From Acidobacteriota bacterium (GTDB lineage: Bacteria > Acidobacteriota > Terriglobia > Terriglobales > Acidobacteriaceae): a stretch of 64,000 nucleotides of DNA. Shown one piece after another: positions 18,113 to 56,184 of the stretch. The stretch spans positions 1 to 64,000 of the forward strand of contig QIAN01000028.1 of NCBI GenBank assembly GCA_003225005.1, given 5' to 3'. Made by a program: the position numbers and the translations under genes. Each line of letters opens with the position of its first letter. The stretch's first letter is position 1. The notes below the pieces were generated by a model. That model searched no databases. It was not told where the DNA came from and worked only from the letters and a program-made list of their open reading frames with translations.

Positions 18113-19156
18113 TTAGCCCTGCGCTTCTCTCAGATAACGAGAGAGGATTGACGCGAGATGCTCGAAGTGCGTCGTAATGATTTCTAGATGATCCCCTGGC
18201 ACCGTCTCCACTTCAACACCCCTCGCTAACTTGGACCAAACTGCGCAAGGATCGTCGGGAAAGTCAGTGGTGATTTCGGCCCTCACAAATTTTATCCTGC
18301 CGTCATAAAACCGGGGCTGATAGCGTGTCAGTGCAGCATAGGCGCTTTCCCGCACGCGTTGAATTACCGGGGAGATCGCGCTTGGTGATTGGTAGCGGGC
18401 CTTCCCGTTTCGGTCACCCGGAATGCGTAACCGCCGTTGAGAACGCTGTGTGATGTACGCAATCGCATCGCGTATAGGCAACTTCGTCATGAGGGAGGCA
18501 GAACGCTTTGCTAAGCGCAAATGCTGACGAAGCCGTTGCATCGGCACCAAGTAACGCATGTGCGGATAACTATCCAGCATCGCCAACAGCGCGACCTTTT
18601 CTCCTCTCTCGGATAAGAGCTGGGCCATTTCCAAAGTTACTAGACCGCCTAGCGAATACCCAACGAGCAAGTAAGGTCCACGGGGCTGTATCTCATTGAT
18701 GGCTTCCAGATAGAAGCGAGCCATATCGGTAATATCTTCGAACGGTTCATCGGCGCCGTCTACACCTTTGGCTTGCATCCCATAAATCGGATTTGGGCAT
18801 TGCATGTGCTTTATCACTTGAAAGAAATCAATCACGCTGCCACCCAAGCCATGAGTAATAAACACTGGCGGCGTCTTGCTGCCAGCCTTCAGGAGCACAA
18901 CCGGTGGGCACCGTGGAGGTGTCGACTGTTCCAACAAAGCCGCCAGGGAAGCGATGGTCGAGGCGTGATAGATCATAACTGGTGGCAGTTCTCGGCCACA
19001 CGTCTCGGCGATTTCGTTGAATAGTTGAAGAGCCAGCGAGGAATCGCCTCCGAGATCAAAAAAGTTTTCGTCGATATTAATCGATGGTAGTTGCAGGACA
19101 TGCTGCCAAATCGGAGTTAGCAGCTCAACCATCGTGGATGTCGATTGATTCTTCAC
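18113..19156 (-). CDS. Peptidyl-carrier protein-thioesterase didomain protein
   Basis: A 347-residue cytoplasmic protein. Residues about 8-75 form a carrier domain with the phosphopantetheine site LGGDSS (Ser39). Residues about 85-345 form an alpha/beta-hydrolase thioesterase: HGLGGS oxyanion loop, VGYSLGG nucleophile elbow (Ser168) and a C-terminal VPGDHLE with the catalytic His. Both domains look catalytically complete. Free-standing PCP-TE proteins receive an aminoacyl or acyl group loaded by a separate adenylation enzyme. It is the last gene of the leftward exopolysaccharide/NRPS locus; its 3' end borders IS debris. A GTG start with AGGTGA upstream is used. Its natural loading enzyme may be the acyl-AMP ligase at 20484-22013 or the adenylation domain at 53449-56184 (inference). 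Confidence 0.88.
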   Translation of the reverse strand: MKNQSTSTMVELLTPIWQHVLQLPSINIDENFFDLGGDSSLALQLFNEIAETCGRELPPVMIYHASTIASLAALLEQSTPPRCPPVVLLKAGSKTPPVFITHGLGGSVIDFFQVIKHMQCPNPIYGMQAKGVDGADEPFEDITDMARFYLEAINEIQPRGPYLLVGYSLGGLVTLEMAQLLSERGEKVALLAMLDSYPHMRYLVPMQRLRQHLRLAKRSASLMTKLPIRDAIAYITQRSQRRLRIPGDRNGKARYQSPSAISPVIQRVRESAYAALTRYQPRFYDGRIKFVRAEITTDFPDDPCAVWSKLARGVEVETVPGDHLEIITTHFEHLASILSRYLREAQG

Positions 19157-19257
19157 GGTTCACCTGATCGGGAAGCTAAAAAGGGGAAGCTTGTTCTTTT
19201 TGCGAAGCGAGACCATCCCGGCTGGCCAATCATCTTATTGAAACAATCTGCAGTTTC

Positions 19258-20274
19258 TCACAAGCAATTTGCCAGTATGCGCGACCCAGAACCCCTCGGG
19301 TTAGGAAGATATTGATAGGAGAACCTAGCAATCCAATGTAAAGCCTGCCTTGCCACCAAGATGAACCATGCCAGCCTTCCGATATTCCCATCGGCTGAAA
19401 ACTGCCACGCTAACCGGAGCATGTTTAAACGCTCGCGATGACTCACTCGAATTCCAAGCCCTACGGAAGAAATAATATCGAACGTTCTCCCTTCCAGATA
19501 CGCGGAGCGCATCGCCTTTCGAAGGTATGGTAGAAGACGCAACGATACGGCGTGTTGTACGATTGCTCCAGGAACAAACAAAGGCAGCTCTCCACTCCTG
19601 ATGAGATTGGCCAATAAGAGAGTGTCTTCAGCCCTAATTGCAATAGGATCGAACAGGCCTGCCTCGATATCAACTTTATTTCGTCGGATGGCGAATCCGG
19701 CTGCATTCAAATATCGAATAACACCGTTTGGCTGAAGGAAGTGATTTTGCAGAGTCATGAGGCGCAGTTGTTCGGCTTTCCCGACCGATCCGTTGGCACA
19801 ATCTCCAACCAAGTGGAGTTGAAGAAAATGTTGTTCTGGCGAGGCGCCGACCGTTCTGTTCAGCACCCGCAAACAGTCCAGATCGAGCCTGCAATCAGCG
19901 TCCACAAACACCAGTACTGGTGCTTTAGAGGCCTGAATTCCACGATTTCTCGCGGTGGAAATGCCGGCATGAGCCTGTCTGATAATTGTGAGCGAATAAC
20001 GGTTTTTCCAGTTCGAGATGTACTCCGGTGCAGTTTCCCTGCTGCCATCATCGACAATAATGACCTCAAAACTCGCCGTAGCCATTTGTTGCGCCAACGA
20101 TCTTAAACATTCCCTCAATCGTGCCCAATCATTATAGACAGCGACGATGATGCTGAAGTCCAGAGAGCTTCCTGCACTGGAAAGACCTGCGTCGAGTTGC
20201 CTTGAAACGCTGGAATCAGTCACGCCAGACGCCTGCGTTACAGAATTGAGGGTGAAATCATAATGGGTTTTCAT
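19258..20274 (-). CDS. Family 2 glycosyltransferase
   Basis: A 338-residue GT-A fold enzyme. Residues about 40-150 carry FSIIVAVYNDWARLRECL (nucleotide-binding start), VIIVDDGS and VFVDADCRLD with the metal-binding DxD. A RAEDTLL acceptor-side acidic segment follows at about 215. The N-terminal 35 residues are variable. It would transfer one sugar to the lipid-linked repeat unit on the inner face of the membrane. It lies between a PCP-TE gene and the acyl-AMP ligase gene, all leftward, so it probably belongs to the same transcript. Donor and acceptor unknown. Confidence 0.88.
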   Translation of the reverse strand: MKTHYDFTLNSVTQASGVTDSSVSRQLDAGLSSAGSSLDFSIIVAVYNDWARLRECLRSLAQQMATASFEVIIVDDGSRETAPEYISNWKNRYSLTIIRQAHAGISTARNRGIQASKAPVLVFVDADCRLDLDCLRVLNRTVGASPEQHFLQLHLVGDCANGSVGKAEQLRLMTLQNHFLQPNGVIRYLNAAGFAIRRNKVDIEAGLFDPIAIRAEDTLLLANLIRSGELPLFVPGAIVQHAVSLRLLPYLRKAMRSAYLEGRTFDIISSVGLGIRVSHRERLNMLRLAWQFSADGNIGRLAWFILVARQALHWIARFSYQYLPNPRGSGSRILANCL

Positions 20275-20483
20275 TCATTTGCACAATATTCGATCAAGGA
20301 CAAGCTCAGTGGAAGGGAGAGCCCTTTTCATGAAGCAGAGAACGAGGGAAAGGAAATATGCGCGTCGAGCAGCAGGCATCAAAGGAGGAGATTACCGGAA
20401 AGGGGGACGCGAGTCGAAGGCCTGCTTGTGGCCGCGAAGACTGGGTTTGAGATGAGAAGTGGAACTTGCGCTCTTCCGTTGCG

Positions 20484-22013
20484 TCAGGAAGCAGGGATCA
20501 GCTTGGCAAGTTCGGCCTTCACCACTTTGCCGGTAGGGGTGACTGGCAATTCGGGGATAAACAGAATTTGAGATGGTCGTTTGTATGGTGCAAGATGGCG
20601 CGCGACATGTTCTTCCAGGGCGGTGCCTGAGAGTGATGAGCCTGGCAGTGCTTGCACAAAGGCTACGATCTCTTCATCGCCTTTGGAGCCCTCCACGGAG
20701 CGACCGATCACGGCAGACCGGACTACAGCCGGATGCGCATTCAACACAACTTCCACTTCGGCCGGATAGACATTCAGGCCAAAACGTACGATCAACTCTT
20801 TTGTGCGCCCCACGATGAAGAGGTTGTTGTCTTCAAACCGGGCGAGATCCCGGGTGTTGAACCATCCTTCTGGATCGATTGCACTTGCTGTCTCGTCAGG
20901 AGCTCGATAATAGCCCTTCATTACGTTTGGCCCGCGCACCCGTAGTTCCCCGACTTGTCCGGCGGGCACTGAATTGCCAGCCGGATCGACCAGCTTGACT
21001 TCCACTCCTGGAAATATTGGGCCCACCGAATCATCTTTGCGCGGAGATTCGACCCGAGTCTGAGCGATGTTCGGAGAGCATTCGGTCACACCGTAGCCAT
21101 TGTGCAGCACCAAGCCGAACAGTTTCTCAACCTCCAATTTGAGCGCGAGATGGAGCGGCGCGCTGGCTGATGAAATGATCCGAAGGGCCGGAAAGTTAAG
21201 CGACTTCATCCTTTTCAGTTTTGTGTATTCCAGGAACATTGAGAACATTGCGGGCGCGCCTAACACAACCGTAATCCCATCCCGTTCGAAGGAGGCGAGC
21301 GCGGCAACAGGATCGAAACGCGTCACCAGATAAAGCGTCGCACCGCTGAGCAATGTTCCCAAAAGCACTACCGAAACCCCTACGACGTGAGACATCGGCA
21401 TGATGCCGTAAAGCCGGTCGTCCGAGGTTAAGGATCTTATTTTCGACGCTCCAGCGGCCACAAATAGCAGGTTTCGATGTGTCAACATCACACCCTTGGG
21501 AGCCCCAGTCGTGCCGGACGAGTAGATTAAGGCGCCGACTCTATCCTCAGGATTCGGATCGATTGCTTCCGGTTCGACGTTTTCGTTCAGTTCTCCGACG
21601 CCGACTAGTCCGAGACCGCGTACTTCTTCGATGCGAGCACCACGTCGCTTCGCATGATTTGTGGCTTGCGGGGACCCACTCACGCTGTAAAGCACGAGGC
21701 GGGGTCCAGAATGTTCTCGAATCTTATCGATCTCACCCGCTGAAAGACGTGCATTCACCAGTACTGGCCAAGCTTCCAGCGCGCTGACGGCGAAAAAAAG
21801 GGCCACCGAGATCCGGGAGTTATCGCACACGACCATGACTCGGTCTCCGGGGCGCACTCCCGAACCAACCAGCGAAGCCTGGGTTTCGGTAATTGCAGAT
21901 GCCAATTCACCATACGTCCACGTCCCGGATGCTTCCACTAAGGCCGGACGTTCGCGCGAGCGCTCCGCCCATAACCTGACAACGTCAATTATCTGTCTGG
22001 GGAGGGTGTTCAA
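20484..22013 (-). CDS. Acyl-AMP ligase (ANL superfamily, acyl-CoA synthetase-like)
   Basis: A 509-residue adenylating enzyme. Seen: the P-loop YSSGTTGAPKGVMLTHRN, the GYGVTECSP core, GWFNTRDLARF, the hinge GRTKELIVRFG and the C-terminal PTGKVVKAEL with the catalytic lysine. Pattern and length fit fatty-acid or small carboxylic-acid ligases rather than NRPS adenylation domains. It has no carrier domain, but a PCP-TE protein is encoded 54 bp upstream in the same direction, and a second lies downstream. The simplest reading is that it charges one of these carriers or CoA with an acyl or amino-acid group. The start is a TTG; no strong ribosome site was seen, so the start is uncertain. Confidence 0.87.
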   Translation of the reverse strand: MNTLPRQIIDVVRLWAERSRERPALVEASGTWTYGELASAITETQASLVGSGVRPGDRVMVVCDNSRISVALFFAVSALEAWPVLVNARLSAGEIDKIREHSGPRLVLYSVSGSPQATNHAKRRGARIEEVRGLGLVGVGELNENVEPEAIDPNPEDRVGALIYSSGTTGAPKGVMLTHRNLLFVAAGASKIRSLTSDDRLYGIMPMSHVVGVSVVLLGTLLSGATLYLVTRFDPVAALASFERDGITVVLGAPAMFSMFLEYTKLKRMKSLNFPALRIISSASAPLHLALKLEVEKLFGLVLHNGYGVTECSPNIAQTRVESPRKDDSVGPIFPGVEVKLVDPAGNSVPAGQVGELRVRGPNVMKGYYRAPDETASAIDPEGWFNTRDLARFEDNNLFIVGRTKELIVRFGLNVYPAEVEVVLNAHPAVVRSAVIGRSVEGSKGDEEIVAFVQALPGSSLSGTALEEHVARHLAPYKRPSQILFIPELPVTPTGKVVKAELAKLIPAS

Positions 22014-22066
22014 TCTGTCACCGCTGCGTTCATCTTGTCGTTTGATTACAAAGCGGATGAATGCCG

Positions 22067-23212
22067 TCAGGCGAGTTGAGCCCGACAGATTTCGCCCTTG
22101 GATATCGCCATGTCAAGAGACTTGCTCAGAGCGATGGCCAAGTGTTTGACGAACGGATCCCTGAGCATGTCGGGGGGATAGACGGGCAAGGAGACGATTT
22201 CCTGGCCTCCTTGGGCGAGGAGGTCCCATTTCATCTCTGGCTTGGCATAAAGCCCGTACTGTTTTACGGGACGAAAATCGGTAATCGCGCCCGCGTACGA
22301 CCGTGATACGTACTGTGAACGCGCCCGATTGTTTGCTTCCCACACCTGCTTTAGCGCAAACGATTCTGATAGGGATGGTCCCGAGGGGGCTTCGGCGGCG
22401 CTTAGCGGAGAAACTTGCTGTCGCGCAGGTTTCTCTGGAGCAACCCTAACCTCACCACTGCGAGCGCGGAGGAGGTTGGCCGCACGAAACTTCCATTGTT
22501 GGAAGACGTAATAGCCTCGACTCAGAACCGAAGGGGGAGGGACTCTCGACCAATTGATGGTGTCGAACAAGGCTAGAAAGCCAACAACTTCGCCGCTTTT
22601 TTGGAGTTGCTGAGCCATCTCCAACGCGATTGTTCCACCCATACGGTACCCACCAAGGAAATAAGGACCCTGTGGCTGCAACTTTCTTATCTCTTCCAAG
22701 TAAAGCGCCGCCATATCCTCGATTCGGGTTAAGGGAGGGCGGTTTCCGTCCAAACCTTGAGACTGCAGACCATAAAATGGCTGGTCTGGAGCGAGGTGAC
22801 GCGCAAGATCCTGATATATGGAAACGTCTCCCGCGGTTCCATGGATACAGAAGAAAGGAGGGCGCGAACCAGCCGGCTGCATTGGGACGAGCGGAGAGAC
22901 CCCGCGATCCGCGCCGGCAGTGCGGAGAACTCTCGCGAACTCACGCACTGTAGGGGCTTCGAACAGCATAGGCAGGGGGATTTTGATTTTGAATGCTTTT
23001 TCGACCTGAGCGAAAAGTTGGATCGTCAGGGCCGAATCGCCGCCCAGGTCAAAGTAGTTCTCGTCGAGTCCGACTGAATCGATGCCCAGAAGCTCCTGCC
23101 AAATATGAGATAGACGACTCTCGATGTCGTCCTGTGTCTCGCGGCACGCTGCGGACACCTCGGCAGAATCTGCTGTTGCAGTCTCTTTTTGATAATGGAA
23201 TTCATTCGTCAT
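22067..23212 (-). CDS. Carrier-thioesterase didomain protein with altered TE nucleophile
   Basis: A 381-residue protein. The carrier domain spans about 28-98, with LGGDSA carrying the phosphopantetheine Ser60. The TE-like domain spans about 105-375: IHGTAGD oxyanion loop and an elbow reading GGYRMGG, where the usual serine is Arg190 (codon CGT). The C-terminal motif is LPVYPPDML instead of the GDH motif. So it may be a non-hydrolytic carrier or docking protein rather than a thioesterase. ATG 23212 is preferred over 23272 because it has GGGGAC eight bases upstream and begins the compact protein. It precedes the acyl-AMP ligase gene, and the pair probably forms a loading unit. Confidence 0.87.
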   Translation of the reverse strand: MTNEFHYQKETATADSAEVSAACRETQDDIESRLSHIWQELLGIDSVGLDENYFDLGGDSALTIQLFAQVEKAFKIKIPLPMLFEAPTVREFARVLRTAGADRGVSPLVPMQPAGSRPPFFCIHGTAGDVSIYQDLARHLAPDQPFYGLQSQGLDGNRPPLTRIEDMAALYLEEIRKLQPQGPYFLGGYRMGGTIALEMAQQLQKSGEVVGFLALFDTINWSRVPPPSVLSRGYYVFQQWKFRAANLLRARSGEVRVAPEKPARQQVSPLSAAEAPSGPSLSESFALKQVWEANNRARSQYVSRSYAGAITDFRPVKQYGLYAKPEMKWDLLAQGGQEIVSLPVYPPDMLRDPFVKHLAIALSKSLDMAISKGEICRAQLA

Positions 23213-23399
23213 AGCATCAGTCCCCAATTGTCGGCTCCTCTTCCGTCTATCCTTTGTAGATTCGATGAACAATCTTGTACAATCCGCGAAAGCTCGTGAG
23301 CCAAAATCATGCGTCTCCGCAGAACGACCACGTAACAGTCAGGCGTTAACCGTCTTGCACGTTCTGAATGCTAAAGCGGCTCCGTGATCTTTGCGCGCG

Positions 23400-24362
23400 T
23401 TAGGACCGTCCCACATTCGTTTCGGCAGAATCCTGGGGCCGGCGAAGCCAAGCCTCTCGCCAATAAACAAATTCGCAGCGGGAGCATCCGCCGAATGCAA
23501 TGTGAGCGCATCCGCAGTGTGAGCCCTCCAGGAAGACTGTATTTTTGAGGCTGCGCATCTCTCCCGACCCATCGACGATTAACTTATCAATTCTTCTCTC
23601 TACCCGACGTTGCTGCCCGCACAAAAGCCGCATGTTCGGCGAAAACCATAGTCCGCGGTTGTTGGCGTGCTCATCCAACGTCTCAAAGATGCTCTCCAGA
23701 GGCTTCACTTCCGCCCATTCTCCAGGCTGTAGGTTGAGTGTTGTCGTCGGCGTGGCCTTGGTTTTCCTAGCACCATATGGGCCGAAAAGTAACCATCGCG
23801 CCTTCCAGAACGCCCAAATAGCAATGCGCCGTGCCATTTCCAGCGGACCACAATTGCCTGCACGGATCTCGGCTAACCACTTCGAATAGCGCTCCGATCT
23901 TTTCAACTTCCTGGTTGCTCTCAGCAGCTCGCTTGCCTGACAAAAATAGGTGTTCGGTCTGACCGAGGTCTTCAGGCGAGCCCGGAGTTGGTCATTCGCT
24001 TCGGGATCAGGCACTGATGGCGCAACCCCATCCTCGACTTTGCGAAGCCACGCCTCACGCCAGAAAATTGTACAGGCCTTCTGGCAGCCGTCGTGATCGG
24101 CACCCGAGCAACGCAGTCCGTCCAGCAGGACGACGTCGTCTGTCCGGAATTCACCGAAATACCAACCCGTTTTCATCCCTGAGGCACAGACTTTCACCAC
24201 TCGTTGAGATACCCGGAACCGTCGCCCACAGTACTCGACCATTTCTCGCATGAACGGTAGTTGATCCACAGTGCCAGCGCCGTCGAGAGTCGCGGCGATT
24301 TCAGTCGGAGTCTTTACCTCAACTAAGTCGCCGGGACGAAGTTGTGAATTTCTTTGCTTCAC
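23400..24362 (-). CDS. Internally duplicated Cys-motif protein of unknown function
   Basis: A 320-residue soluble protein with no signal peptide. It contains two copies of a domain of about 100 residues (about 8-113 and 213-311) joined by a charged helical linker. Both copies start LxPGDLVEVK or LQPGEWAEVK, share a C-G-x(4)-V motif, then a VxLxG strand, a C...GC..C cluster and end in FWREAWLR or YWREAWLR. The Cys spacing (several within about 20 residues) suggests metal binding. I do not recognise the family. The neighbours are the PCP-TE/AMP-ligase pair downstream and the cupin upstream, so it may take part in the same acyl or amino-acid chemistry. The GTG start has AAGGATC upstream. Confidence 0.75.
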   Translation of the reverse strand: MKQRNSQLRPGDLVEVKTPTEIAATLDGAGTVDQLPFMREMVEYCGRRFRVSQRVVKVCASGMKTGWYFGEFRTDDVVLLDGLRCSGADHDGCQKACTIFWREAWLRKVEDGVAPSVPDPEANDQLRARLKTSVRPNTYFCQASELLRATRKLKRSERYSKWLAEIRAGNCGPLEMARRIAIWAFWKARWLLFGPYGARKTKATPTTTLNLQPGEWAEVKPLESIFETLDEHANNRGLWFSPNMRLLCGQQRRVERRIDKLIVDGSGEMRSLKNTVFLEGSHCGCAHIAFGGCSRCEFVYWREAWLRRPQDSAETNVGRS

Positions 24363-24424
24363 TTGTAGATTTGATCCTTACCCAATTCCGATTTTACCGA
24401 AGCACGGCGGAGGCACAGACAAAG

Positions 24425-24892
24425 CTACGAGGAGGGCGATCGCCACTTGCCTGAGATACCCGCGACGTGCCGAAACTTGCTCCATGCTTTTACAGCGAAC
24501 GCCAGCGGTTGGCTCACGGAATTCTTTAGAACAGCAACTTTTCTGAAATGATGAGGGTGACGCCAGATGGCGTTGGTCCCGGCTGGGAAGAATGCCACGT
24601 CTCCCGCGCCAAACCGACGCTCCACGCCCTTTCCGTCGGTCATGAACCCTTCGCCCGACAGAACAATGTAAGCCTCATCCTTGCTGTAGTGCCATTTATA
24701 GCTGACCGCCCCGCACTCCCACACTACGACGTACGCGAGCCGATCTCGGGTCGTGCCTAGAATCTTACTGCGCGTTTCCGGTTGCCCGCTCAATACCCAC
24801 TCAGGGGGAATCGAGTCGGGCTCCAGTTGTACGTCTGCCAGAGTGGTGGTCAATACATTTGCGTCAAAGCTCAGTGTTTCCATACTCGACAT
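24425..24892 (-). CDS. Cupin-domain protein
   Basis: A 155-residue single-domain cupin. The metal-binding first motif is represented by KWHYSKDEAYIVLSGEG (two residues of HxH replaced by W-H-Y, with Glu after), and the second by FGAGDVAFFPAGTNAIWRHP with a late His. It resembles the small DUF861-type cupins that bind ureidoglycolate or sugar-like ligands, but the metal site is only partly conserved. GGAGG seven bases before ATG 24892 fixes the start. It lies in the leftward locus between the MetA-like gene and the Cys-motif protein. Role unknown. Confidence 0.78.
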   Translation of the reverse strand: MSSMETLSFDANVLTTTLADVQLEPDSIPPEWVLSGQPETRSKILGTTRDRLAYVVVWECGAVSYKWHYSKDEAYIVLSGEGFMTDGKGVERRFGAGDVAFFPAGTNAIWRHPHHFRKVAVLKNSVSQPLAFAVKAWSKFRHVAGISGKWRSPSS

Positions 24893-24955: not shown

Positions 24956-26026
24956 CTACAGTGCTGCCGACCGCTTGCGCAGCGTTTTGCCGTACCCTGC
25001 CACAGTGACATAGGCAGGACTCTCGGCTTTTCTTTTGCGCACGTATTCCAGCCAGTTGCAATAAATACTATTCGCTGATGAGTTCCAGCCGTTCTGTAGT
25101 GTTTCGACAACGGAGGATTCCGGGAAGTTTGCAATGGTTTCTTCACGCCGATTGGATAAAGCGTTCTCCCTGAAATCAGCTAAGAGTCTTGCGGCTGCCG
25201 CGTCAAAATATCCCTTGGGCAGCGAGGGGTAAGTGTCCCTTTCCCCTCCGAGGAATCGCTTTATGTCTCTCCTGTATTCCTTTAGAAGAGTTCGCGATCC
25301 GTACTCCGGATGACCTTGGAAATGCACGAACAGGCAGTTCGTTTTCCTCTTGGCAAACGAATCAACACCAGCTTCGGCCGATTTGGTGATGACGGCGTAT
25401 CCGCACTCCCGCAATTCGTCCTGCCGCACTTCGTTCCATCGGGAATGCGGAAAGCGTATCTGATCGGAGTTGTGGCCCGTCAGCAGATGATGGGGTGCCT
25501 TCGCGAAATCAAAGACACCAAATCGCTTGTCGTCGAGTCTGTGCCGCTCAATGCCGTCACTGTGTAACACACCAGCGTGCGCGGCCAGACACGACAGGAC
25601 TGCCGAGACGGTATGGCGTTCGGCCCAATCCAGAAGTTCAGTCAGCACGTGCCAATATGGCTCCTCGCGCAGATTCGGACAGTGCGGCTCGGTGCCCGTA
25701 ACGATTGCGGCATCGAACCGGGTGTTCCAAAGATCGTCAAAGTCCTGATAGAAGTTGTCGAAATGTTTCCGGCCGCGTTCGCCTCGCGCAATCCCGGGCA
25801 ACGAATAAAGTTTGATGCGAACAGGAATGTCGCCCGCTGCGGCTTCGAGAAGTTCGAAGAACTGCATTTCTGTGTCTTCGAGTGCCGGGTCTGGCATGTT
25901 ATTTACGAGGGCGATTTTGATGTAGTCGGTACGGCGTCCGTAACCGTTGATCGATAGCACGGGGTGAAAACTCGCCCGTTCCGCCCAGCGAGGTGGTATT
26001 CGTCCCCGATCTAGGAAAATTGGCAT
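24956..26026 (-). CDS. metA: MetA-like homoserine O-acyltransferase
   Basis: A 356-residue protein of the glutamine-amidotransferase-like MetA family. Seen: IKIALVNNMPDPALEDTE (characteristic MetA start), the VTGTEP loop, the nucleophile region AVLSCLAAHAGVLH with Cys, FVHFQGHPEYG and DTYPSLPKGYF. Family enzymes acylate homoserine with acetyl- or succinyl-CoA; which one is used cannot be told by eye. ATG 26026 has GGGAGGG before it and starts the family domain; a longer frame from 26101 would overlap the upstream gene. It is encoded just after the sulfhydrylase gene (MetY), so both steps from homoserine to homocysteine are present. Its place in an exopolysaccharide locus is unusual. Confidence 0.85.
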   Translation of the reverse strand: MPIFLDRGRIPPRWAERASFHPVLSINGYGRRTDYIKIALVNNMPDPALEDTEMQFFELLEAAAGDIPVRIKLYSLPGIARGERGRKHFDNFYQDFDDLWNTRFDAAIVTGTEPHCPNLREEPYWHVLTELLDWAERHTVSAVLSCLAAHAGVLHSDGIERHRLDDKRFGVFDFAKAPHHLLTGHNSDQIRFPHSRWNEVRQDELRECGYAVITKSAEAGVDSFAKRKTNCLFVHFQGHPEYGSRTLLKEYRRDIKRFLGGERDTYPSLPKGYFDAAAARLLADFRENALSNRREETIANFPESSVVETLQNGWNSSANSIYCNWLEYVRKRKAESPAYVTVAGYGKTLRKRSAAL

Positions 26027-26069
26027 GATAACCCTCCCCGGTTCATGGCCAGCAAAGAAGCCCCAAGTC

Positions 26070-27347
26070 TCATTGCGCCGCGCAGTCGAGCGCTTGAGCA
26101 AGATCGGCGATGATGTCGTCGATATGCTCGATGCCCACGCTAAGCCGTATCATCTCCGGCGTAACCCCTACCTTCGCTTGTTCTTCTGCTGTCAGTTGAC
26201 GGTGGGTTGTGGAGGCGGGATGACAAGCCAGCGACTTGGCATCGCCCATATTCACCATGCGTTTGAACAAGCGCAGGGCATTGAAACATTTCGTGCCCGC
26301 CTCAAAGCCACCTTTCACACCGAAGGTCAGCAGTGAGCAGCGGCGGCAGCCTAAATACCGCTGGGCCATCGAATACAAGGGGTTGTCGGGAAACCCAGCG
26401 TAATTGACCCAGTCCACGAGAGAATGTTCGCGCAGATACTCGGCGACTTTTCGGGCATTTTCAACGTGGCGCTCGACACGCAGCGCAAGCGTCTCGACTC
26501 CCTGAATCAGCAGGAAGCCATTGAAGGGTGACAAGGTGGCGCCGGTGTTGCGTTGGCAAACAGTTCGGCAACGCGCAATGTAAGCGGAGTCGCCATAGTG
26601 CTCGACATAGACCACGCCGTGATAAGCGATTTCCGGACGGTTGAGCATGTAGTAACGCTCGGGATAATCGCGCCAGGGAAACTTTCCGCTGTCGACAATC
26701 ATTCCACCAAGCGTTGTGCCGTGTCCTCCCATGAATTTCGTCATGGAATGCACAACAACATCGGCACCATATTCAATGGGTCTCAAGAGGATGGGCGTGG
26801 CAATCGTATTGTCGACAATTAAAGGCACGCCATGCTTGTGCGCAACTCTTGCTAAACCTTCAATGTCGGCCACGTTCCCGGCGGGGTTACCGACACTCTC
26901 ACAGAAAACGGCTCTCGTGTTTTCGTCGATTAGTTTTTCGACAGCTTCAGGATGGTCACTCTCCGCAAAGCGCGTGGTAATTCCCCGCTTCGCAAAAACG
27001 TGTGCGAATAAGGTGTAAGTGGCTCCGTAAAGCTGCGGAATAGAAACAATGCTGTTGCCCATCTCAGCAATGTTGATGATGGAGTATTCGATGGCTGCCA
27101 TTCCGGAGCTGACGCTTAAGGCTTCCACACCTCCTTCAAGGGCGGCGACTCGCTTCTCGAGCACCGCATTTGTCGGATTGCCGATTCGCGTGTATATGTT
27201 TCCTTCGACTTCCAAATTAAACAGAGCGGCTCCATGCTCCGCGCTGTCAAACTCGAAAGCGATCGTCTGATAGATCGGGACCGCCACCGCCTTGGTTGTC
27301 GGGTCGCCGTCGTAGCCCACGTGAATTGCGATGGTCTCTCTCTTCAT
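26070..27347 (-). CDS. metY: O-acetylhomoserine aminocarboxypropyltransferase (sulfhydrylase)
   Basis: A 425-residue PLP enzyme of the Cys/Met metabolism family. It opens ETIAIHVGYDGDPTTKAV, has the phosphate-binding segment SSGMAAIEYS, and the PLP lysine region HSMTKFMGGHGTTLGG (about residue 210). Length fits MetY (about 430) rather than MetB or MetC (about 390). It converts O-acetylhomoserine and sulfide to homocysteine and acetate in the cytoplasm. The downstream MetA-like gene begins 44 bp after its stop. Together they form a direct-sulfhydrylation pair. The ATG start is clear; the ribosome site is weak. Confidence 0.92.
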   Translation of the reverse strand: MKRETIAIHVGYDGDPTTKAVAVPIYQTIAFEFDSAEHGAALFNLEVEGNIYTRIGNPTNAVLEKRVAALEGGVEALSVSSGMAAIEYSIINIAEMGNSIVSIPQLYGATYTLFAHVFAKRGITTRFAESDHPEAVEKLIDENTRAVFCESVGNPAGNVADIEGLARVAHKHGVPLIVDNTIATPILLRPIEYGADVVVHSMTKFMGGHGTTLGGMIVDSGKFPWRDYPERYYMLNRPEIAYHGVVYVEHYGDSAYIARCRTVCQRNTGATLSPFNGFLLIQGVETLALRVERHVENARKVAEYLREHSLVDWVNYAGFPDNPLYSMAQRYLGCRRCSLLTFGVKGGFEAGTKCFNALRLFKRMVNMGDAKSLACHPASTTHRQLTAEEQAKVGVTPEMIRLSVGIEHIDDIIADLAQALDCAAQ

Positions 27348-27394: not shown

Positions 27395-28681
27395 TCACGA
27401 ACGCAATGCGGGCTCTTCTCCCAGCGATCGAGAATGCTCTGTTGTGGAAGGGATAACACTTGGCCCAGGAATGTTGATGGAATCTGCCGGCAGCGATTTC
27501 AATATCGTCCGCGTGAGTGTGCGAGCAGCAAACCCAGCGCCGAAGGCAAATCGCATGACGGGTCCGAAGCTGTTAGCGGCTGCGACTCCGATAAAGTAAA
27601 GACCGGGAACGGATGATTCGAAGGCGGAAGACAAGACTGGCGCGCCGTTTACGGTTCTGACCTTAGAACGGAGGTCCGCGCTGAGGAAACGGAGCCGTTC
27701 CATATCCACACGGTAACCGGTCGCCGCGATGACGTGCTCTGTCAGCACTTCACGCTGAGTGCCATCTGCAGCCTGAAGGTTTAGTCGTACTCGGCCATTC
27801 TTTATCGCGGCACCCTGCGTCGAGTATCCGAGCAAGAGAGGAGCCCTCATCACCTTATCCTTGATAAACCACCCTCCAGAAGGGCCAAGGGTGGTGCGCA
27901 CAAGGTGCAAACGCAACTGCTCAGGCAGATAGTGAAAGGCACCCGGTCCATTCGCAAAAAAGCGCGAGCGCAACCCTGGACCAAGCCCCGATTTTGGATG
28001 CCGAATCTGCTTCCATAAAGAACGCTTGGCACCGTTGGGACCGCTGTGGAACTGCAAGGAAGGCCGCCGAGCTACAAGCTGTACGTCCGCGCCGGCATCG
28101 CGCAACAATCCAGTCAAGTCCAGGGCCGATGCCCCGCCCCCGAGCACCACAACGCTGTGACCTTTGAAGGATCCAAGTTCATGATGCTCGTAGCTATGCG
28201 ACAGGAACTCCTCCGGCAACTGGGCCAACTGAGGGGGAACGTATTTGAAATGGGTAATACCGACGGCGAGCACCACCTGCCGGGCCGAAACTGTCTCACC
28301 ATAGTCGAGCCGCAGACGAAATCCACCCGGCATGCGGTCGAGACCGACAACCATCCGGTCTTCCAGCTCAGGCACCATTCGCCGCCCAAAGGCGAGCCCG
28401 TAGTCAGCGAAGGTATCAAGTCGAACTGGAATGCCTGAGTCAGCGTACTCGATACCGCGCTCAGCACAAAAATGTTTCAGCGTGAAATCACGATTGGGAT
28501 CGTAAATGTCCGACGCGAAACCGTCAGACTTGAGCATCATGCCTTTTGGCATATGCGCCACCCAGCTGTCCATCGGGCGGCCGAAAATACGGAATGGAAT
28601 GCCGCAACGCCGGAAATGCGCCGCTAAAGAGAGTCCGTAAGGACCCGCGCCAACAATCGCAATATTCACCATGGCTTTCAC
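27395..28681 (-). CDS. FAD/NAD(P)-binding oxidoreductase (flavin monooxygenase-like)
   Basis: A 428-residue flavoprotein. The N-terminal IAIVGAGPYGLSLAAHF is the FAD dinucleotide-binding motif, and the second Rossmann motif is VVVLGGGASALDLTGLL (about 175-191). The ATGYRVD motif near residue 325 is typical of the lysine/ornithine N-monooxygenase and flavin-dependent monooxygenase group. Several acidobacterial and rhizobial polysaccharide loci have homologues of this kind. It may hydroxylate an amino acid or oxidise a carrier-bound intermediate, but this is inference. GTG at 28681 follows AAGGAA closely; an ATG at 28672 is possible. Confidence 0.85.
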   Translation of the reverse strand: MKAMVNIAIVGAGPYGLSLAAHFRRCGIPFRIFGRPMDSWVAHMPKGMMLKSDGFASDIYDPNRDFTLKHFCAERGIEYADSGIPVRLDTFADYGLAFGRRMVPELEDRMVVGLDRMPGGFRLRLDYGETVSARQVVLAVGITHFKYVPPQLAQLPEEFLSHSYEHHELGSFKGHSVVVLGGGASALDLTGLLRDAGADVQLVARRPSLQFHSGPNGAKRSLWKQIRHPKSGLGPGLRSRFFANGPGAFHYLPEQLRLHLVRTTLGPSGGWFIKDKVMRAPLLLGYSTQGAAIKNGRVRLNLQAADGTQREVLTEHVIAATGYRVDMERLRFLSADLRSKVRTVNGAPVLSSAFESSVPGLYFIGVAAANSFGPVMRFAFGAGFAARTLTRTILKSLPADSINIPGPSVIPSTTEHSRSLGEEPALRS

Positions 28682-32373: not shown

Positions 32374-32543
32374 ATATCTGCCTTTCCCCACAGGACAGGT
32401 CATCCGCTAAGTCGAGCACTCACAAGAGGAAGTAGTTTTCAGACGGCGACGGAGGCGATCAACAGAGGATTGGACCTTGTTGCTTCTTATCTCAACCAAG
32501 GGAGCAGTGCCGTCCAGGAAGACGGAAAAGAATCCATGGGCCA

Positions 32544-33785: not shown

Positions 33786-34008
33786 CTTCGTCCAGACCTC
33801 CGCTTTCAAGAGCAGCGAATAGCAAGAATCTATGGGGAACGACTTAGAGCTTCGTGGGGATCTACACCGGCTTACGCTGGAACGGAACGATCTAGACCAC
33901 GCTGGGGGAAAGCGCAGATGCTCACTTAGATTCCCACATTTGAACTTCGCAATCGCTGCCGCGAACAAATCGGCTTCAAATCAAGTTCACACCTGCATGC
34001 GGTAGAAA

Positions 34009-35199: not shown

Positions 35200-35246
35200 A
35201 AAGCCGATTCGACTTTTTTCCCAGGGTAAGGACTTCCCAGCCCTCC

Positions 35247-41526: not shown

Positions 41527-41673
41527 AAATGTGAAGGCCTAGTCCTTCTGACTTCTGAGCCACCTAGGGTTACGCAGTATCATCCGTGTGCGTGCTTATT
41601 TTGAAGATTTCTGCTAAGCGCGCCCATTGCTAGAAGCAATGGGAGGAAAATTCCCACTCCGAGGTAGTTGAAA

Positions 41674-45604: not shown

Positions 45605-45629
45605 TTTGGGCCCTGTAAACAGATGGCCA

Positions 45630-50048: not shown

Positions 50049-50677
50049 TTTGCCTCGAAATCGTGATTTGCCGTCGACAGTTCGCTTGGAAAATCAGCCC
50101 AAGCTGATCCAAACTAATGCAACTGATTCTAGCAATGACCCTTTTGGCAGCACTAGCTTACAGAGGTGCTAGAACCTTTGACACAACTCAAGACGCCTTC
50201 TCGGACGCATCGCCTAGCCGACGAAAGTTGGCGCGCGGATCTGACACGAAAACGCTCACTCCCGTCACTCGTCTCCTTTCCCGGACTTGCGCCCGAGGTT
50301 AGCTCTAATTTCCTCCATCCCAGTTTTCTTTTGGGAAACCATCGTCTCGAAACCGTCACTGTGCATGACATTCCCGCAATCGTCGCGCCTTGTTCCCGGT
50401 CTTCCGTCTGCAGCAATGAGACTTTCGCTCCTCCTTCGTCCCAGAAGCCTTCCAGCCCAACTGTGCGATGGAGTGCGGCGCAAGGGGCTGACGTTTGCCC
50501 CGCTTCAGCTCCGTACAAATCGGCAGCCCGCGCTGCCAACCACGGGGGCATGACAACTATAAACGCTGCGACTGCCTCCGCCAGCGACTGACGCACCATG
50601 GCCGCGCTTTCGGGCCGCGTTTGCACTGCAGTGCCAGGTTTTCTTCGACGTACAGCGCTTATGATTAAGGATTCGCT
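50049..50677. other. Intergenic stretch with weak open frames
   Basis: About 630 bp between glycosidase and glycosyltransferase genes. A 157-codon minus-strand frame (50153-50626) has a weak hydrophobic start near 50599 (VAAFIVVMPPWLAARA), and a 141-codon plus-strand frame (50166-50591) overlaps it. Neither shows a known domain or ribosome site. It may hold a leader, an internal promoter or a decayed gene; I see nothing firm. Confidence 0.35.
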
Positions 50678-51979: not shown

Positions 51980-52042
51980 TTAGCAATTTTGTGAACTCAC
52001 CATCATGACCCGATCGCGGGCTGATGAACTCGACAAGTTCGT

Positions 52043-53452
52043 TTAAGTTCGACCTTTGTTCGCTGCTCGAAAAGCTCCGGGTGGACCGTGCTGACGTTCA
52101 AAACGCTGCCACAAGTGTTCGATGACAATGGTAGTAGCCTCAGCACTGAGTTGGGAGAACGACCCTGTGGAATTGACAACGCGAACAGAAGGCCTTCTAT
52201 CACCGCAGGTTGCACGCGATTTTCTTTGGCCGTCTGTCTCTCCCGAGGACATTTCCGGTTTGCGAGAAAGAACGCCTCCCTCCGTGGCGTCCAGAACCAG
52301 CATGAGATCAGGTTGCGGTATTAGCCGGCGCAGCATCCTCGCCAACCACGACGTATCTTCATATGGATAACGTTCCGGATCAGTCAGAACCTCGTTGAAG
52401 TAGCCGTCGAATACAACTAGACCCGATCGGGCAAGAACCGGTCGAATTACAACCCAGTACCCCAGCCAATATTCCACAAAGTGAGCTAAAAGCCTGCCGG
52501 GGGCCCAGCCATGACGACGCAGACCTACGAGGAGGGAGCGCGCCTGCTCGCGCGTGGTGTTTGCTCTCCACAGTTTGAAGGGCCAATGAAAGAGCTTGTG
52601 CCTGTCGAACGCGGGACCAACCGCTTGAACCAGATGCTCTATAAGTCTGTTCTTAACTGTCCCGTCTGGACCCATGACAGAGATAAAAAGACCCGTAGGG
52701 TGAGACCATCTACGAACAAGCCGTATGAAATCGGAAAGCAGATCCGCTGTCAACCTCAATGGATTTCGCACAAGACTTGTTTGCCACGCCCGTCTCCTAC
52801 CTTTCGCGAGGAGGGGGTTCAGGCGACCGCTTTCGCACGCGTTGACGATACGTATCTTCACTGCGCCCAGCAAAACCTTACCGGCTAGTTTTTCCGCTGT
52901 GGGCCGGCCTAACCGCTCAACGAGGAACTTCAGTCTGCGTTGGTGCCTCGCAGGCGCGGTTGCCTTCCAGATTCTTCTCGCCAGCAGGTAAGTGAATTCT
53001 TCCTCGAGAGCGGGTACCCAGAACATGTCGTGCCTGCGGCGGCTGAAGAGAAGCAGCTTGACGGACGGTGCGAGCAGAGCGCCACGCTGGTGCTTGAAAA
53101 TAACGTCAATGGCCAGAGAGTTGATCGTGGGTCCTTCGAACCATAAAAAACGAAAACAGTATGATTCCACGTAATAATTAATAACCTGAACCAGCGAATA
53201 CCCCTTGCTCTTCAAAAGCCGAAACACAAATAGTAGACCTTGATAATCTTCAGGATGCACCGCGATATCCAAGTCGCTAGATAATTGTTGTGGTATTTCG
53301 TCCCACGAGTGAAGTACACAATAGCGAACATGGTTGCGATCAAGACAAGTAAAGAAACTTAACAGTAAGTCCTCGCGGCTGCGACTCGACGCAGACGTCT
53401 GTTTTGACCAATGAGCGAGGGGGGCTCCGCTTTCCACATTTTTAGAAATCAT
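52043..53452 (-). CDS. Nucleotidyltransferase-like/thymidylate-kinase-like fusion protein B
   Basis: A 469-residue paralogue of 45630-47081. Here the N-terminal nucleotidyltransferase-like domain keeps the acidic pair, SSDLDIAVHPED (Asp60 and Asp62), and a third Asp in LAIDVIFK. The C-terminal kinase-like domain has a degenerate P-loop, GPDGTVKNR (261-269): the glycine before the lysine is valine and the following Thr/Ser is Asn. The substrate-lid region is also divergent. ATG 53452 overlaps the stop of the NRPS gene as ATGA, so translation is probably coupled. A longer frame from 53482 exists. Role unknown; a carrier or sugar nucleotidyltransferase is possible. Confidence 0.8.
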   Translation of the reverse strand: MISKNVESGAPLAHWSKQTSASSRSREDLLLSFFTCLDRNHVRYCVLHSWDEIPQQLSSDLDIAVHPEDYQGLLFVFRLLKSKGYSLVQVINYYVESYCFRFLWFEGPTINSLAIDVIFKHQRGALLAPSVKLLLFSRRRHDMFWVPALEEEFTYLLARRIWKATAPARHQRRLKFLVERLGRPTAEKLAGKVLLGAVKIRIVNACESGRLNPLLAKGRRRAWQTSLVRNPLRLTADLLSDFIRLVRRWSHPTGLFISVMGPDGTVKNRLIEHLVQAVGPAFDRHKLFHWPFKLWRANTTREQARSLLVGLRRHGWAPGRLLAHFVEYWLGYWVVIRPVLARSGLVVFDGYFNEVLTDPERYPYEDTSWLARMLRRLIPQPDLMLVLDATEGGVLSRKPEMSSGETDGQRKSRATCGDRRPSVRVVNSTGSFSQLSAEATTIVIEHLWQRFERQHGPPGAFRAANKGRT

Positions 53453-56184
53453 GTGGTTAGCCAGCTTTCCGCTCTCCGGCATGGGGCAGTAAGATAACTT
53501 CTCAAGTTGCTGGCTAGAATCTCGACATTAGGCTCAATGAAAAAGCGGACGATCCAGTTCGAATAGCCGGGGACCTGATGAACTTTTAGTCTCGGCGCAA
53601 GCCCCATCCAATATTGGCTCTCCCAATCGCCGCCTGGTTCCCGACGAGTTGCCTGAAAAAGCGCCATTTGCCCAGGAAACGGTTCAGGACGATAGTCTCT
53701 CAAAGCGGGTCCCAGGATCTCTTGAATGTTTCGGCCGCGACCGTTGGCCTGAGGCGGTCGTAACTGGTGAAGGAGTTTCCGGAGCCGTTCATTGAGGATG
53801 TTGGAGAGAACCCTGCTGCGCGCGCGGATATGGTCCTTGATGTACTCGATCGCTTCTCCGTAGTTCAAGCCTTGCAGGTTCTCGGTATGAAACTTTACTC
53901 TCTCGGTCAGCCAACGCCGTTGGACTGCATTCGAATGTTCAATGTAGTCCTGGTAACAGATATGAGGTTCGAACAAAGCTAGGGTTGCGACTTGTTGGCC
54001 CTGAGATAGGAGATGAGTGGCAGTTGCATAAGCCAGTAACCCTCCTGCACAGATGCCCCCAAGATGATACGGACCCTCCGGCTGTAATTCACGCATTTGC
54101 CTGGCGAGAGAAGCTGCCACGTCCTCCATCCTATAAGGGGCGGACACTTGGCTTCCGTCAACAAGGGTTGGATCAACACCGATCAGGGGTTGGTCAGAGC
54201 CCAGGCGTCGCGCTAGAGACCGGAAGATGGGGCCTGCAGTGAAGCCAAAGCAGAAGAAGGGTGGATTAGACCCAGAAGGCTGAATAGGAGCTAGTGCGGA
54301 TGGCCAACGAAGAGCACTACTGTTGCCCAGCACGGAGGCCTGTTTTTCAATAGTTGGTGCTTCGAAGATCGCGGCCATCGATAGTTTCTTGCCGAACGTC
54401 TGCTCGATTCGCCGAAGTAGTTTTGCAACAAGCAGGGAATGTCCGCCCAGTTCAAAGAAGTTTTCTTTGACCCCGACACTACGTACATTGAGGACGGACT
54501 CCCATAGTTTCGTTAGTTGGGATTCAATGTTGTTCCTAGGGGCTATGTATCCTTTGTGCGGCGGCAAGTCCAATTGCTCGGGCAGCGGGAGAGCTCTGCG
54601 ATCCACCTTACCATTCGGAGTCAATGGCAAAGCGTCCAAGAATACGAAGCGGGATGGAAGCATGTAATCGGGCAGTCTCTTTTTAAGGAACTCGCGTAAT
54701 TCATCAGCAGCGAGAGCCTTCGTTCGGCCGACAGCAACATACGCGACCAACCGTTTGTCACCTGGACCGTCTTCCAGCGCGACAACCACGTTTTTGGCGG
54801 CTCCCGGATATTCGGCTAATACTGATTCTATTTCGCCCAGCTCGATTCGAAAGCCTCGTACCTTCACCTGATTATCAATTCGTCCCAGGCACTCAATGTC
54901 TCCATTGGGCTGATACCTGGCAAGGTCTCCGGTCCTATACAAACGCGCTCCACTCCCCTGTTCACGAAATGGATCGGGAATGAACTTATCCGCGGTCAAG
55001 TCAGGACGATGAAGATATCCTCGGGCAACACCATCGCCACCAATGTATAGCTCCCCAGGGACACCGACGGGCACCGGTTCGAGGTTGCTGTCCAGGATGT
55101 AAATCTGCGTATTCGCGATAGGCTTGCCGACCGTGATTGGACCCGCGCTCGAAGTGATTTGCGACGTGGTAGACCAAATGGTGGTTTCAGTGGGGCCATA
55201 CATGTTCCAGACCGCTGAAGATCTGGTTAATAACTCGCCGACCAGGTCACGCGGCAAGGCCTCTCCACCGCACAGCACTTTTAGGTCCTTGCTGCCGCGC
55301 CATCCGGCTTCCACGAGCAGTCTCCAGGTAGCCGGTGTGGCCTGCATCACCGTGGGTACTGTTCTTTCTAAGGTTTGCCGCAATTGATACCCATCCGAAG
55401 CCGTATCGCGGCTAACCAGCACGACACAGGAGCCCACAATCAATGGCAAATAGACTTCCAATCCGGCAATGTCAAATGACACCGTTGTTACTGCCAACAG
55501 AACATCCTTTTCTGTTAGCCCAGGCCTTGACCGCATCGAAACCAAGAAATTAACGACGGAGCGGTGACAGATCTGGACACCTTTGGGCTTACCAGTCGAT
55601 CCTGAAGTATAGATTACGTACGCTAGATCTTCGGCACGTGCCCTTCCACAACAATTCTCAGGACTTTCTCGGGTAATCGCACCCGAATCGATGAAAACCA
55701 ATTGATCTTTGTATTCAGAAAATCTCGAGCGAAACAGTTCCTCTGTTACTAGTACCTTCAATCCAGAATCCTGAAGCATAATGGTGAGCCGATCCGATGG
55801 GTATCGGGGGTCGAGCGGAACGTAAGCGCCTCCTGCCTTCAGAATTCCAAGTAACCCGATGATCATATCGGGTGAACGCTCAATGCAAATGCCCACAAGG
55901 ACGTCTGGGCCGACACCCTGTTTCAGCAAACAGCGCGCCAGCTGATTGGACCGGTTGTTTAGCTCACCATAGGTCAATCGTCGGTTCTCAAACACAACCG
56001 CAATGGCATCGGGCGTTCGGGCAGCCTGCTCCTCAAAGAGATGATGGATGCATTTATTTTTTGGATAATCCGCCTGCGTATCGTTCCATTGCACCAGCAG
56101 TCGATGTAGTTCGTCATCATTCACCGGAGATGAACTCAACTGAAGCTGCTCGGAATTTTCAGAAATCTGCTCGACGTCGGCCAT
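53449..56184 (-). CDS. Single-module NRPS: adenylation-PCP-thioesterase
   Basis: A 911-residue protein. Adenylation domain about 45-535: LTYGELN, YTSGSTGKPKGV, NMYGPTETTIW, RTGDLARY, the GRIDNQVKVRG hinge and NGKVDRR. PCP about 550-620 with LGGHSL (Ser583). TE-like domain about 630-905 with elbow GGICAGG (Cys712 in the nucleophile position) and VPGYSNW in place of the usual GDH motif. There is no condensation domain, so it loads an amino acid and releases or transfers it. The specificity pocket read by eye is close to the glycine code. ATG 56184 follows GAGG; an upstream frame to 56268 is less likely. The NT/kinase protein B is coupled downstream. Confidence 0.9.
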   Translation of the reverse strand: MADVEQISENSEQLQLSSSPVNDDELHRLLVQWNDTQADYPKNKCIHHLFEEQAARTPDAIAVVFENRRLTYGELNNRSNQLARCLLKQGVGPDVLVGICIERSPDMIIGLLGILKAGGAYVPLDPRYPSDRLTIMLQDSGLKVLVTEELFRSRFSEYKDQLVFIDSGAITRESPENCCGRARAEDLAYVIYTSGSTGKPKGVQICHRSVVNFLVSMRSRPGLTEKDVLLAVTTVSFDIAGLEVYLPLIVGSCVVLVSRDTASDGYQLRQTLERTVPTVMQATPATWRLLVEAGWRGSKDLKVLCGGEALPRDLVGELLTRSSAVWNMYGPTETTIWSTTSQITSSAGPITVGKPIANTQIYILDSNLEPVPVGVPGELYIGGDGVARGYLHRPDLTADKFIPDPFREQGSGARLYRTGDLARYQPNGDIECLGRIDNQVKVRGFRIELGEIESVLAEYPGAAKNVVVALEDGPGDKRLVAYVAVGRTKALAADELREFLKKRLPDYMLPSRFVFLDALPLTPNGKVDRRALPLPEQLDLPPHKGYIAPRNNIESQLTKLWESVLNVRSVGVKENFFELGGHSLLVAKLLRRIEQTFGKKLSMAAIFEAPTIEKQASVLGNSSALRWPSALAPIQPSGSNPPFFCFGFTAGPIFRSLARRLGSDQPLIGVDPTLVDGSQVSAPYRMEDVAASLARQMRELQPEGPYHLGGICAGGLLAYATATHLLSQGQQVATLALFEPHICYQDYIEHSNAVQRRWLTERVKFHTENLQGLNYGEAIEYIKDHIRARSRVLSNILNERLRKLLHQLRPPQANGRGRNIQEILGPALRDYRPEPFPGQMALFQATRREPGGDWESQYWMGLAPRLKVHQVPGYSNWIVRFFIEPNVEILASNLRSYLTAPCRRAESWLTT

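Follow-up and report, generated by a model that had tools for sequence, protein, structure and literature searches.

A carrier-protein gene set merged with an exopolysaccharide operon and recurring in scattered Acidobacteriota

In the Dlt system, which performs the D-alanylation of teichoic acids, an amino-acid-activating A domain and a carrier feed a cell-surface polymer, and in fusaric acid biosynthesis FUB7 forms a C-C bond with an aldehyde-derived nucleophile. As described in the available part of PMC10967133, the fusaric acid (FUB) cluster of Fusarium combines an aspartate kinase, a homoserine O-acetyltransferase, a thiol lyase, and an enzyme resembling nonribosomal peptide synthetases (NRPS-like). 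According to an excerpt of PMC9210659, the thioesterase (TE) of mycobacterial Pks13 releases its product onto polyols, with a preference for trehalose, following activation by FadD32, an AMP ligase. Here, we describe a set of genes in an Acidobacteriota bacterium (assembly GCA_003225005.1) that shares parts with these systems: two free PCP-TE proteins, an acyl-AMP ligase, and enzymes of a putative homoserine and a putative keto-acid branch, merged with an exopolysaccharide (EPS) operon. This enzyme set is common to a scattered group of Acidobacteriota. We tentatively favour the reading that it encodes a dedicated carrier-protein pathway whose amino-acid-derived unit is finally placed on a sugar.

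The analysed stretch, called the window below, comprises positions 1-64000 (64,000 nucleotides) of contig C246 (QIAN01000028.1; 78,316 bases), part of a 7.9 Mb genome in 550 contigs. Numbers preceded by G, L, and C label genomes (G000 is the source genome), loci, and contigs.

A gene set shared by scattered relatives

Between about 63.3 and 18.1 kb, a greedy non-overlapping set of open reading frames (ORFs) with a minimum of 150 aa places 34 of 35 on the minus strand, and beyond position 18000 the gaps between neighbouring ORFs are below 220 bp in 30 of 33 cases. The sole plus-strand ORF of the run starting beyond 18000 is glycosidase-like (41668-43137). EPS assembly and glycosyltransferase genes fill the upper part. 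The lower part reads, in transcription order, ATP-grasp ligase, aspartokinase, AsnB, FAD enzyme, MetY, MetA, cupin, Cys-rich protein, PCPTE_arg, AMP ligase, glycosyltransferase, and PCPTE_ser. An A-PCP-TE protein lies about 20 kb upstream of the ATP-grasp gene, amid EPS genes. Past a transposase follow an aldehyde dehydrogenase, a branched-chain-type aminotransferase, and a homologue of the XrtA-type ATPase, and just past the other window end the same contig carries a thiamine diphosphate (ThDP) enzyme and a CxxCH protein.

The original prediction, made from the letters of this stretch, placed the A-PCP-TE, two free PCP-TEs, AMP ligase, and ATP-grasp with EPS genes on one strand, and Pfam, NCBIfam, and the ORF set bear this out. 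The locus also lacks a condensation domain, as predicted: the genome's seven matches are all on contigs other than C246. Carrier chemistry in an EPS locus thus stands, but the predicted gene list lacked the enzymes that define the set. Aspartokinase, AsnB, FAD enzyme, MetY, MetA, cupin, Cys-rich protein, aminotransferase, aldehyde dehydrogenase, and ThDP enzyme are absent from that list or lie beyond the coordinates it covered. Its GNAT-like protein (ORF 34009-35385) matched no family of Pfam or NCBIfam at E<=0.001, and a match to GNAT was absent at E<=0.5 as well. Since this ORF overlaps the upstream gene by 139 bases, its true start is probably later. It has a 29% homologue, L080_7, located between an AMP ligase and a MetA gene, for which the GNAT match is sub-threshold (16.9 bits of 22).

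Relatives of PCPTE_ser at E<=1e-50 were found in 14 of 399 class genomes, the source genome included. A search of the named genome collection with PCPTE_arg gave 21 loci; four Acidobacteria contigs showed 47-54% identity over nearly the full protein, and in the other 17 loci the best segments reached 35-48%. In a phylum sample, 40 of 297 genomes matched PCPTE_arg at E<=1e-40, mostly within long NRPS-like ORFs.

We tabulated the module in 16 loci of 14 genomes, with identity thresholds chosen by the analyst. G520, whose match reaches 39% in a 531-aa open frame, was left out, and the close-MetY search contributed G496; L011, L014, and two further PCP-TE copies of the source genome (G000:C519 and C366) are not in the table. 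These two copies, L050 and L051, are PCP-TE relatives in their own right, and L050 lacks the carrier Ser. L012 and L013, the G553 and G514 loci themselves, supplied the queries for ThDP enzyme, P450, phosphopantetheinyl transferase, FemAB, deacetylase, and exosortase, so that these two genomes score self-matches. L013 is identical to L059, the last 1000 bases of L012 and L054 are identical, and L011 and L050, which happen to be equally long, gave no nucleotide match to each other.

The aminotransferase and the ThDP enzyme are the most frequent partners (12/14 genomes each), followed by the AMP ligase (9/14), by MetA, MetY, glycosyltransferase, and ATP-grasp (8/14 each), by PCPTE_arg at an identity of at least 48% (7/14), and by P450 and phosphopantetheinyl transferase (6/14 each). 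In each of the eight loci with a close MetY (80-100%), MetA and the AMP ligase are present as well. Several of the relatives' contigs are short (6 to 24 kb), so gene absences are weak evidence. The conserved co-occurrence that the original prediction proposed to look for in other Acidobacteriota was recovered, with the same partner genes around 13 PCPTE_ser genomes (G520 left out), often together with polysaccharide genes.

Identities to the window proteins are highest for the aminotransferase (72-84% in 11 other module genomes) and the aldehyde dehydrogenase (70-74% in L011 and the G509 and G526 module loci). They reach 59-67% for the AMP ligase (8 other module genomes), 52-65% for the ATP-grasp ligase (7), and 50-55% for the glycosyltransferase (7), and the FAD enzyme has eight homologues at 58-71% in related loci. 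The ThDP enzyme is 64% identical to that of L013, for which benzoylformate decarboxylase is the nearest among solved structures. In the L013 alignment, the residue that we take to be His70 of benzoylformate decarboxylase is kept, and the place presumably equivalent to His281 is not His.

Two further gene types recur. Neighbours of module genes repeatedly include members of a CxxCH-motif family that by eye resemble lipoproteins and have a repeat region, and a further FAD enzyme recurs beside further ATP-grasp types, read by eye and distinct from the window pair (Table 1).

Carriers, thioesterases and a proposed homoserine branch

Both free window carriers retain the phosphopantetheine Ser. In PCPTE_ser it lies in LGGDS, and the TE has GYSLG and a C-terminal VPGDH. 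Across its family, GxSxG is present in 15/15 aligned proteins and the C-terminal His in all 14 sequences covering the place (L051 has a gap there); the alignment left out the G621 copy and one G509:C1 copy. The PCPTE_arg family differs at the TE nucleophile position, with Cys in 7/8 and Arg in the window copy, and has no His at the usual C-terminal place in 8/8. With such residues, PCPTE_arg is unlikely to be a normal hydrolase.

The A-PCP-TE had been grouped with the free PCP-TEs as one system, which the module loci table does not support, as the similarity there is generic (24-33%). Its TE shows the motif GICAG, and the aligned C-terminal place holds no His. Its PCP-TE part has matches at E<=1e-45 in 31 of the 399 class genomes, the source genome among them, and those in other genomes are at most 46% identical and mostly in long NRPS-like ORFs. 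By these comparisons, the A-PCP-TE is a separate protein and not part of the conserved module. Its A domain carries D-I-L-Q-L-G-M-I-W at what we take to be the specificity-code positions, together with the presumed invariant Lys. The available part of PMC12283262 reports DILQLGMIWK for four Gly-activating domains. Judged by this code, the A-PCP-TE may activate glycine.

A close MetY was found in 10 of 250 class genomes at E<=1e-150 and in none of the other 240 at that level. Four other genomes have it at 81-85% (five at 81-100% with the source genome) and five at 64-69%. Being rare in the class, this form is not the general methionine route there. The aspartokinase part is present in 2/14 module genomes, the window genome and G509, where it belongs to an 876-aa ORF beside an ATP-grasp gene. 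A different recurrent cluster type (L084-L088) combines a MetY at 64-69% and a MetA relative with AMP-ligase-like genes. Within it, PLP decarboxylase-like and small oxygenase-like genes were seen by eye in L086 and L087, and sugar genes follow in L087.

A proposed pathway and its alternatives

The pathway reading draws on genes, families, recurrence, and active-site motifs, and all substrates are inferred. Aspartokinase and MetA would supply O-acylhomoserine, whose acyl group the MetY-type enzyme would swap for a sulfur or carbon nucleophile. Aminotransferase, ThDP decarboxylase, and aldehyde dehydrogenase may convert an amino acid to keto acid, aldehyde, and acid, and the FAD enzyme (with a P450 in relatives) may oxidise an intermediate. 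The AMP ligase would charge the carrier of the PCP-TE proteins with an acid, the TE that keeps Ser and His would move the unit onto sugar or water, and the module's own glycosyltransferase would add the sugar. The homoserine and keto-acid branches would thus be joined into a carrier-bound unit destined for a sugar. As the set is merged with the EPS operon in the window, the simplest target would be the polymer or its lipid-linked unit. A bolder version, which we consider improbable, has a FUB7-like C-C bond join O-acylhomoserine to the aldehyde from the aminotransferase and ThDP enzyme, giving a new homoserine-derived amino acid that is activated on a free PCP and installed on a surface glycan by a TE in an acyltransferase role.

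Sugar genes lie near the module in the window, G553, G514, G621, G500, G609, G579, G509:C14, and in part G499; the G541 and G496 loci are too short to judge. Many of these assignments come from reading translations (L071 and L074 by eye only), and L070 and L082 were assessed through ORF lists and table searches. Pfam identified epimerases, glycosyltransferases, and Wzx and Wzy families in the flanks of L068, L069, and L073, in a tally of 40 of 49 ORFs that favours sugar genes, the nine omitted being module members or not sugar-like. The tally for L053, L072, L066, and L067 covered 38 of 43 ORFs and the best 25 of 142 families; a few sugar-type ORFs of L066 and L067 were seen by eye outside those 25. 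The module glycosyltransferase is retained at G456 and G526; other sugar genes are few at G526, and none were seen at G456. Flanking many but not all loci, sugar genes point to a frequent, not obligatory, polysaccharide link.

Single members of the set also occur on plasmids. The FAD enzyme matched eight plasmid records, and the four examined all have an ATP-grasp or carboxylate-amine ligase gene nearby; three show clear polysaccharide regions and the fourth one glycosyltransferase about 5.5 kb away. No match to MetA, MetY, or PCP-TE at E<=1e-10 was found in these four. FAD and ATP-grasp-type genes were seen in polysaccharide regions of Granulicella, Mesorhizobium, and Bradyrhizobium plasmids. 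The ThDP enzyme matched 84 plasmid records, of which two were examined. A Bradyrhizobium plasmid has a fatty acid-CoA ligase, an aldehyde dehydrogenase, and a P450 within about 9 kb and no annotated PCP-TE, MetA, MetY, or aminotransferase; the second has none of these seven gene types (ligase, aldehyde dehydrogenase, P450, PCP-TE, MetA, MetY, aminotransferase).

Several findings weigh against this pathway reading. In the presence table, neither a P450 nor a phosphopantetheinyl transferase lies on the window contig (for the latter, the source genome has two PF01648 matches elsewhere), and in G509 the module genes lie on three separate contigs, of which one is an EPS locus. The carrier Ser is lost in 5/15 aligned PCPTE_ser proteins, which suggests that the TE may act on a partner-supplied carrier, and the Arg of the window PCPTE_arg could mean decay. 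By its sequence, MetY (508 bits to a sulfhydrylase, 434 bits to FUB7) cannot tell sulfur from carbon chemistry. No clear polysaccharide genes were seen near the module at G509:C1, G456, and G400, and only weak ones at G526. With G509:C1, G456, and G526, part of what the original prediction named as its refutation is observed, namely homologues of the PCP-TE and AMP ligase genes together in loci unrelated to polysaccharides. The same three loci suit a secondary-metabolite cluster with a free small product (e.g., a pipecolate-like or sulfur amino acid derivative), whose place among EPS genes would reflect shared genomic islands. We regard this as nearly as likely as the sugar-bound unit: the P450 of the six genomes, a PKS (polyketide synthase)-like ORF read by eye in the G456 contig, and the sporadic distribution (14/399) speak for it, but the glycosyltransferase accompanies the set in 8/14 genomes and polysaccharide genes adjoin many loci.

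MetA, MetY, and aspartokinase might be ordinary methionine genes placed here by chance, leaving a pathway of PCP-TEs, ligase, aminotransferase, and ThDP enzyme only. MetA and MetY each exceed their ordinary family cut-off, and the genome has no HTS match besides MetA 24956 (no search was made for a MetX-type enzyme), which argues against a dedicated, non-housekeeping role. We still find chance placement unlikely, given that the MetA-MetY pair accompanies the AMP ligase in 8/8 loci, that close MetY is rare in the class, and that the genome has three aspartokinases over the cut-off (two besides the module copy) and two further strong Cys/Met PLP (pyridoxal phosphate) enzymes, one split over two frames. 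There is a similarly small chance that the window copy is a decaying remnant, as the Arg at the nucleophile position and a PF07592 transposase splitting the module from the aminotransferase and aldehyde dehydrogenase, its start seen by eye in another frame, would suggest; the module ORFs are nevertheless open with lengths usual for their families, and both carrier Ser sites are kept. The least probable reading has the module supply the acceptor onto which an exosortase would join PEP-CTERM proteins. In 5 of the 15 genomes searched (G514, G526, G621, G509, G500), an exosortase is found on the contig of a PCP-TE and at most about 35 kb from it, and the window has the XrtA-type ATPase homologue. 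Counted by genome, however, PF09721 is not enriched (9/15 with PCP-TE or close MetY, G520 included, vs. 89/151 class genomes), and the source genome's three exosortase matches are on contigs other than C246.

If the product is sugar-bound, the set would represent a new way to decorate bacterial surface polysaccharides via thioester carriers, in a phylum with poorly known polymers and metabolites. Should the product be free instead, the set would still be a carrier-protein pathway that pairs homoserine and keto-acid supply and for which no description was found. In both cases, the gene set offers a precise handle for the choice of strains and genes to study.

Neighbouring features and comparison with known systems

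Table 1. Features of the window, its contig, and related loci, with the evidence for each
Feature	Position	Strand	Evidence
Aldehyde dehydrogenase	11237..12664	-	NCBIfam matches under the cut-offs shown
Branched-chain-type aminotransferase of module	13604..14470	+	PRK13356 461.6 bits, cut-off 262
ATPase related to XrtA/PEP-CTERM-associated ATPase	14617..15675	+	TIGR03015 225.6 bits, cut-off 324.5 not reached
Transposase, ISAzo13-type	15905-17615	-	PF07592 294 bits, model positions 51-308 of 308
Free PCP-TE (PCPTE_ser)	18113..19156	-	Pfam PP-binding 53.6 bits, Thioesterase 95.6 bits
Family-2 glycosyltransferase of module	19258..20274	-	Pfam PF00535
Acyl-AMP ligase	20484..22013	-	Pfam AMP-binding 277 bits
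Second free PCP-TE (PCPTE_arg)	22067..23272	-	Pfam PCP and TE
Cys-rich protein, two repeats (by eye)	23400..24362	-	no Pfam or NCBIfam family
Cupin	24425..24892	-	Pfam Cupin_3
Homoserine O-acyltransferase, MetA family	24956..26101	-	NCBIfam PRK05368.1-3 386.8 bits, cut-off 358
O-acylhomoserine sulfhydrylase-type PLP enzyme, MetY family	26070..27347	-	TIGR01326 615.8 bits, cut-off 495.1
FAD/NAD(P)-binding oxidoreductase	27395..28681	-	Pfam Pyr_redox_3
Asparagine synthase-type amidotransferase (AsnB)	28771..30687	-	TIGR01536 450 bits, cut-off 267.1
Aspartokinase	30796..32403	-	TIGR00657 373.4 bits, cut-off 208.7
ATP-grasp ligase	32544..33968	-	Pfam CPSase_L_D2 and ATP-grasp
ORF labelled GNAT-like earlier	34009..35385	-	no family match over a cut-off
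Polyprenyl glycosylphosphotransferase, WcaJ-type (EPS initiation)	36630..38066	-	TIGR03025 425.6 bits, cut-off 295.55
A-PCP-TE	53449..56268	-	Pfam A, PCP, and TE
EPS assembly block (Wzy-, Wzx-, kinase-, Wzz-, Wza-type genes, sigma-54-type regulator)	56317..63298	-	
ThDP enzyme, decarboxylase-like	L079:1444-2988 (window coordinates 65444-66988)		both TPP domains
CxxCH-family members	L079:3112-4425 (window contig 67112-68425), L060:9845-11005, L052:4178-5377, L058:12125-13357, L072:2491-3798, L086:12358-13617		
Further FAD and ATP-grasp loci	L060:3905-6396, L061:14892-17306, L069:14130-16651, L080:2777-5326, L083:4260-6550		

In the EPS block, Pfam supports Wzy_C (80.3 bits) and Poly_export (54.9 bits), as it does the glycosyltransferases of the EPS run, and the Wzz-type protein matches TIGR03007 under its cut-off. 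The Wzx-type (57783) and kinase-type (59161) ORFs gave no Pfam match at E<=0.5 and, like the sigma-54-type regulator, were named from reading their translations. Two glycosidase-like paralogues, the plus-strand ORF already mentioned and 48519-50048 (-), are 44% identical. Two long proteins of similar layout by eye are encoded at 45630-47081 and 52043-53482 (both -); the former has a Pfam thymidylate kinase match (32.8 bits, cut-off 27) and the latter no family match at E<=0.001. Around the transposase, at 16-18 kb, the GC skew is 0.17. Promoter and terminator scans stayed at chance level.

The Cys-rich protein has matches in 9 of 199 phylum genomes (own included), with homologues at 61% in L011 and 68% in L060. 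Its structure prediction, made from an alignment of two sequences, reached a mean pLDDT of 37.6, so no fold is inferred. A 34% relative (L035:9591-13769) has WcaJ-, Wza-, and Wzz-type neighbours, and 19.9 kb of that locus showed no carrier module; the family may thus belong to EPS loci generally.

Judged by titles and the openings of abstracts, no description of this gene set was found in the searched literature, which covers few subscription papers. XrtA/PEP-CTERM (EpsH) loci resemble the window in their EPS genes, AsnB-type amidotransferase, and XrtA-type ATPase homologue, and some relatives add FemAB and exosortase. Among the XrtA models tested (TIGR03108, TIGR03098, TIGR03015, and TIGR03019, not every XrtA model), however, AsnB misses TIGR03108 (358.8 bits, cut-off 816.9), the A-PCP-TE misses TIGR03098 (231.6 bits, cut-off 592.35), the ATPase misses TIGR03015 (Table 1), and the relatives' FemAB misses TIGR03019. 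For the AMP ligase, TIGR03098 is not among the best 25 of 110 matches. To our knowledge, free PCP-TEs, MetA, MetY, and the ThDP enzyme are not XrtA parts. PMC1569441 gave no hits for ligase, decarboxylase, acyl carrier, asparagine synth, Solibacter, or acidobacter.

With NRPS, the window shares A, PCP, and TE domains; it differs in that C246 lacks a condensation domain and two of its carriers are free-standing didomains. As in Dlt, an A domain and a carrier lie beside cell-surface polymer genes, but here the A domain is fused to PCP and TE, scores 283.9 bits against a DltA cut-off of 476, and has no membrane O-acyltransferase identified next to it.

Two precedents concern different halves of the proposed pathway. 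Like the FUB cluster (available part of PMC10967133), the window has an aspartate kinase, homoserine O-acyltransferase, MetY-type enzyme, NRPS-like protein, flavin enzyme, and hydrolase; aspartokinase, homoserine O-acyltransferase, and MetY-type enzyme cluster in it, and MetA-MetY do so in 8 loci. No PKS gene was seen in the window, which adds aminotransferase, ThDP enzyme, free PCP-TEs, and glycosyltransferase, and its flavin enzyme is FAD/NAD(P)-binding, whereas FUB9 is FMN-dependent. In FadD32/Pks13, likewise, an acyl-AMP ligase loads a carrier and a TE delivers the acyl group to a sugar (excerpt of PMC9210659). Both free PCP-TEs align with the Pks13 model in its C-terminal part, but without a ketosynthase domain and at 68.6 and 70.7 bits against a cut-off of 2100. 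As far as these excerpts describe them, the FUB cluster offers a precedent for the homoserine branch and FadD32/Pks13 one for delivery to a sugar.

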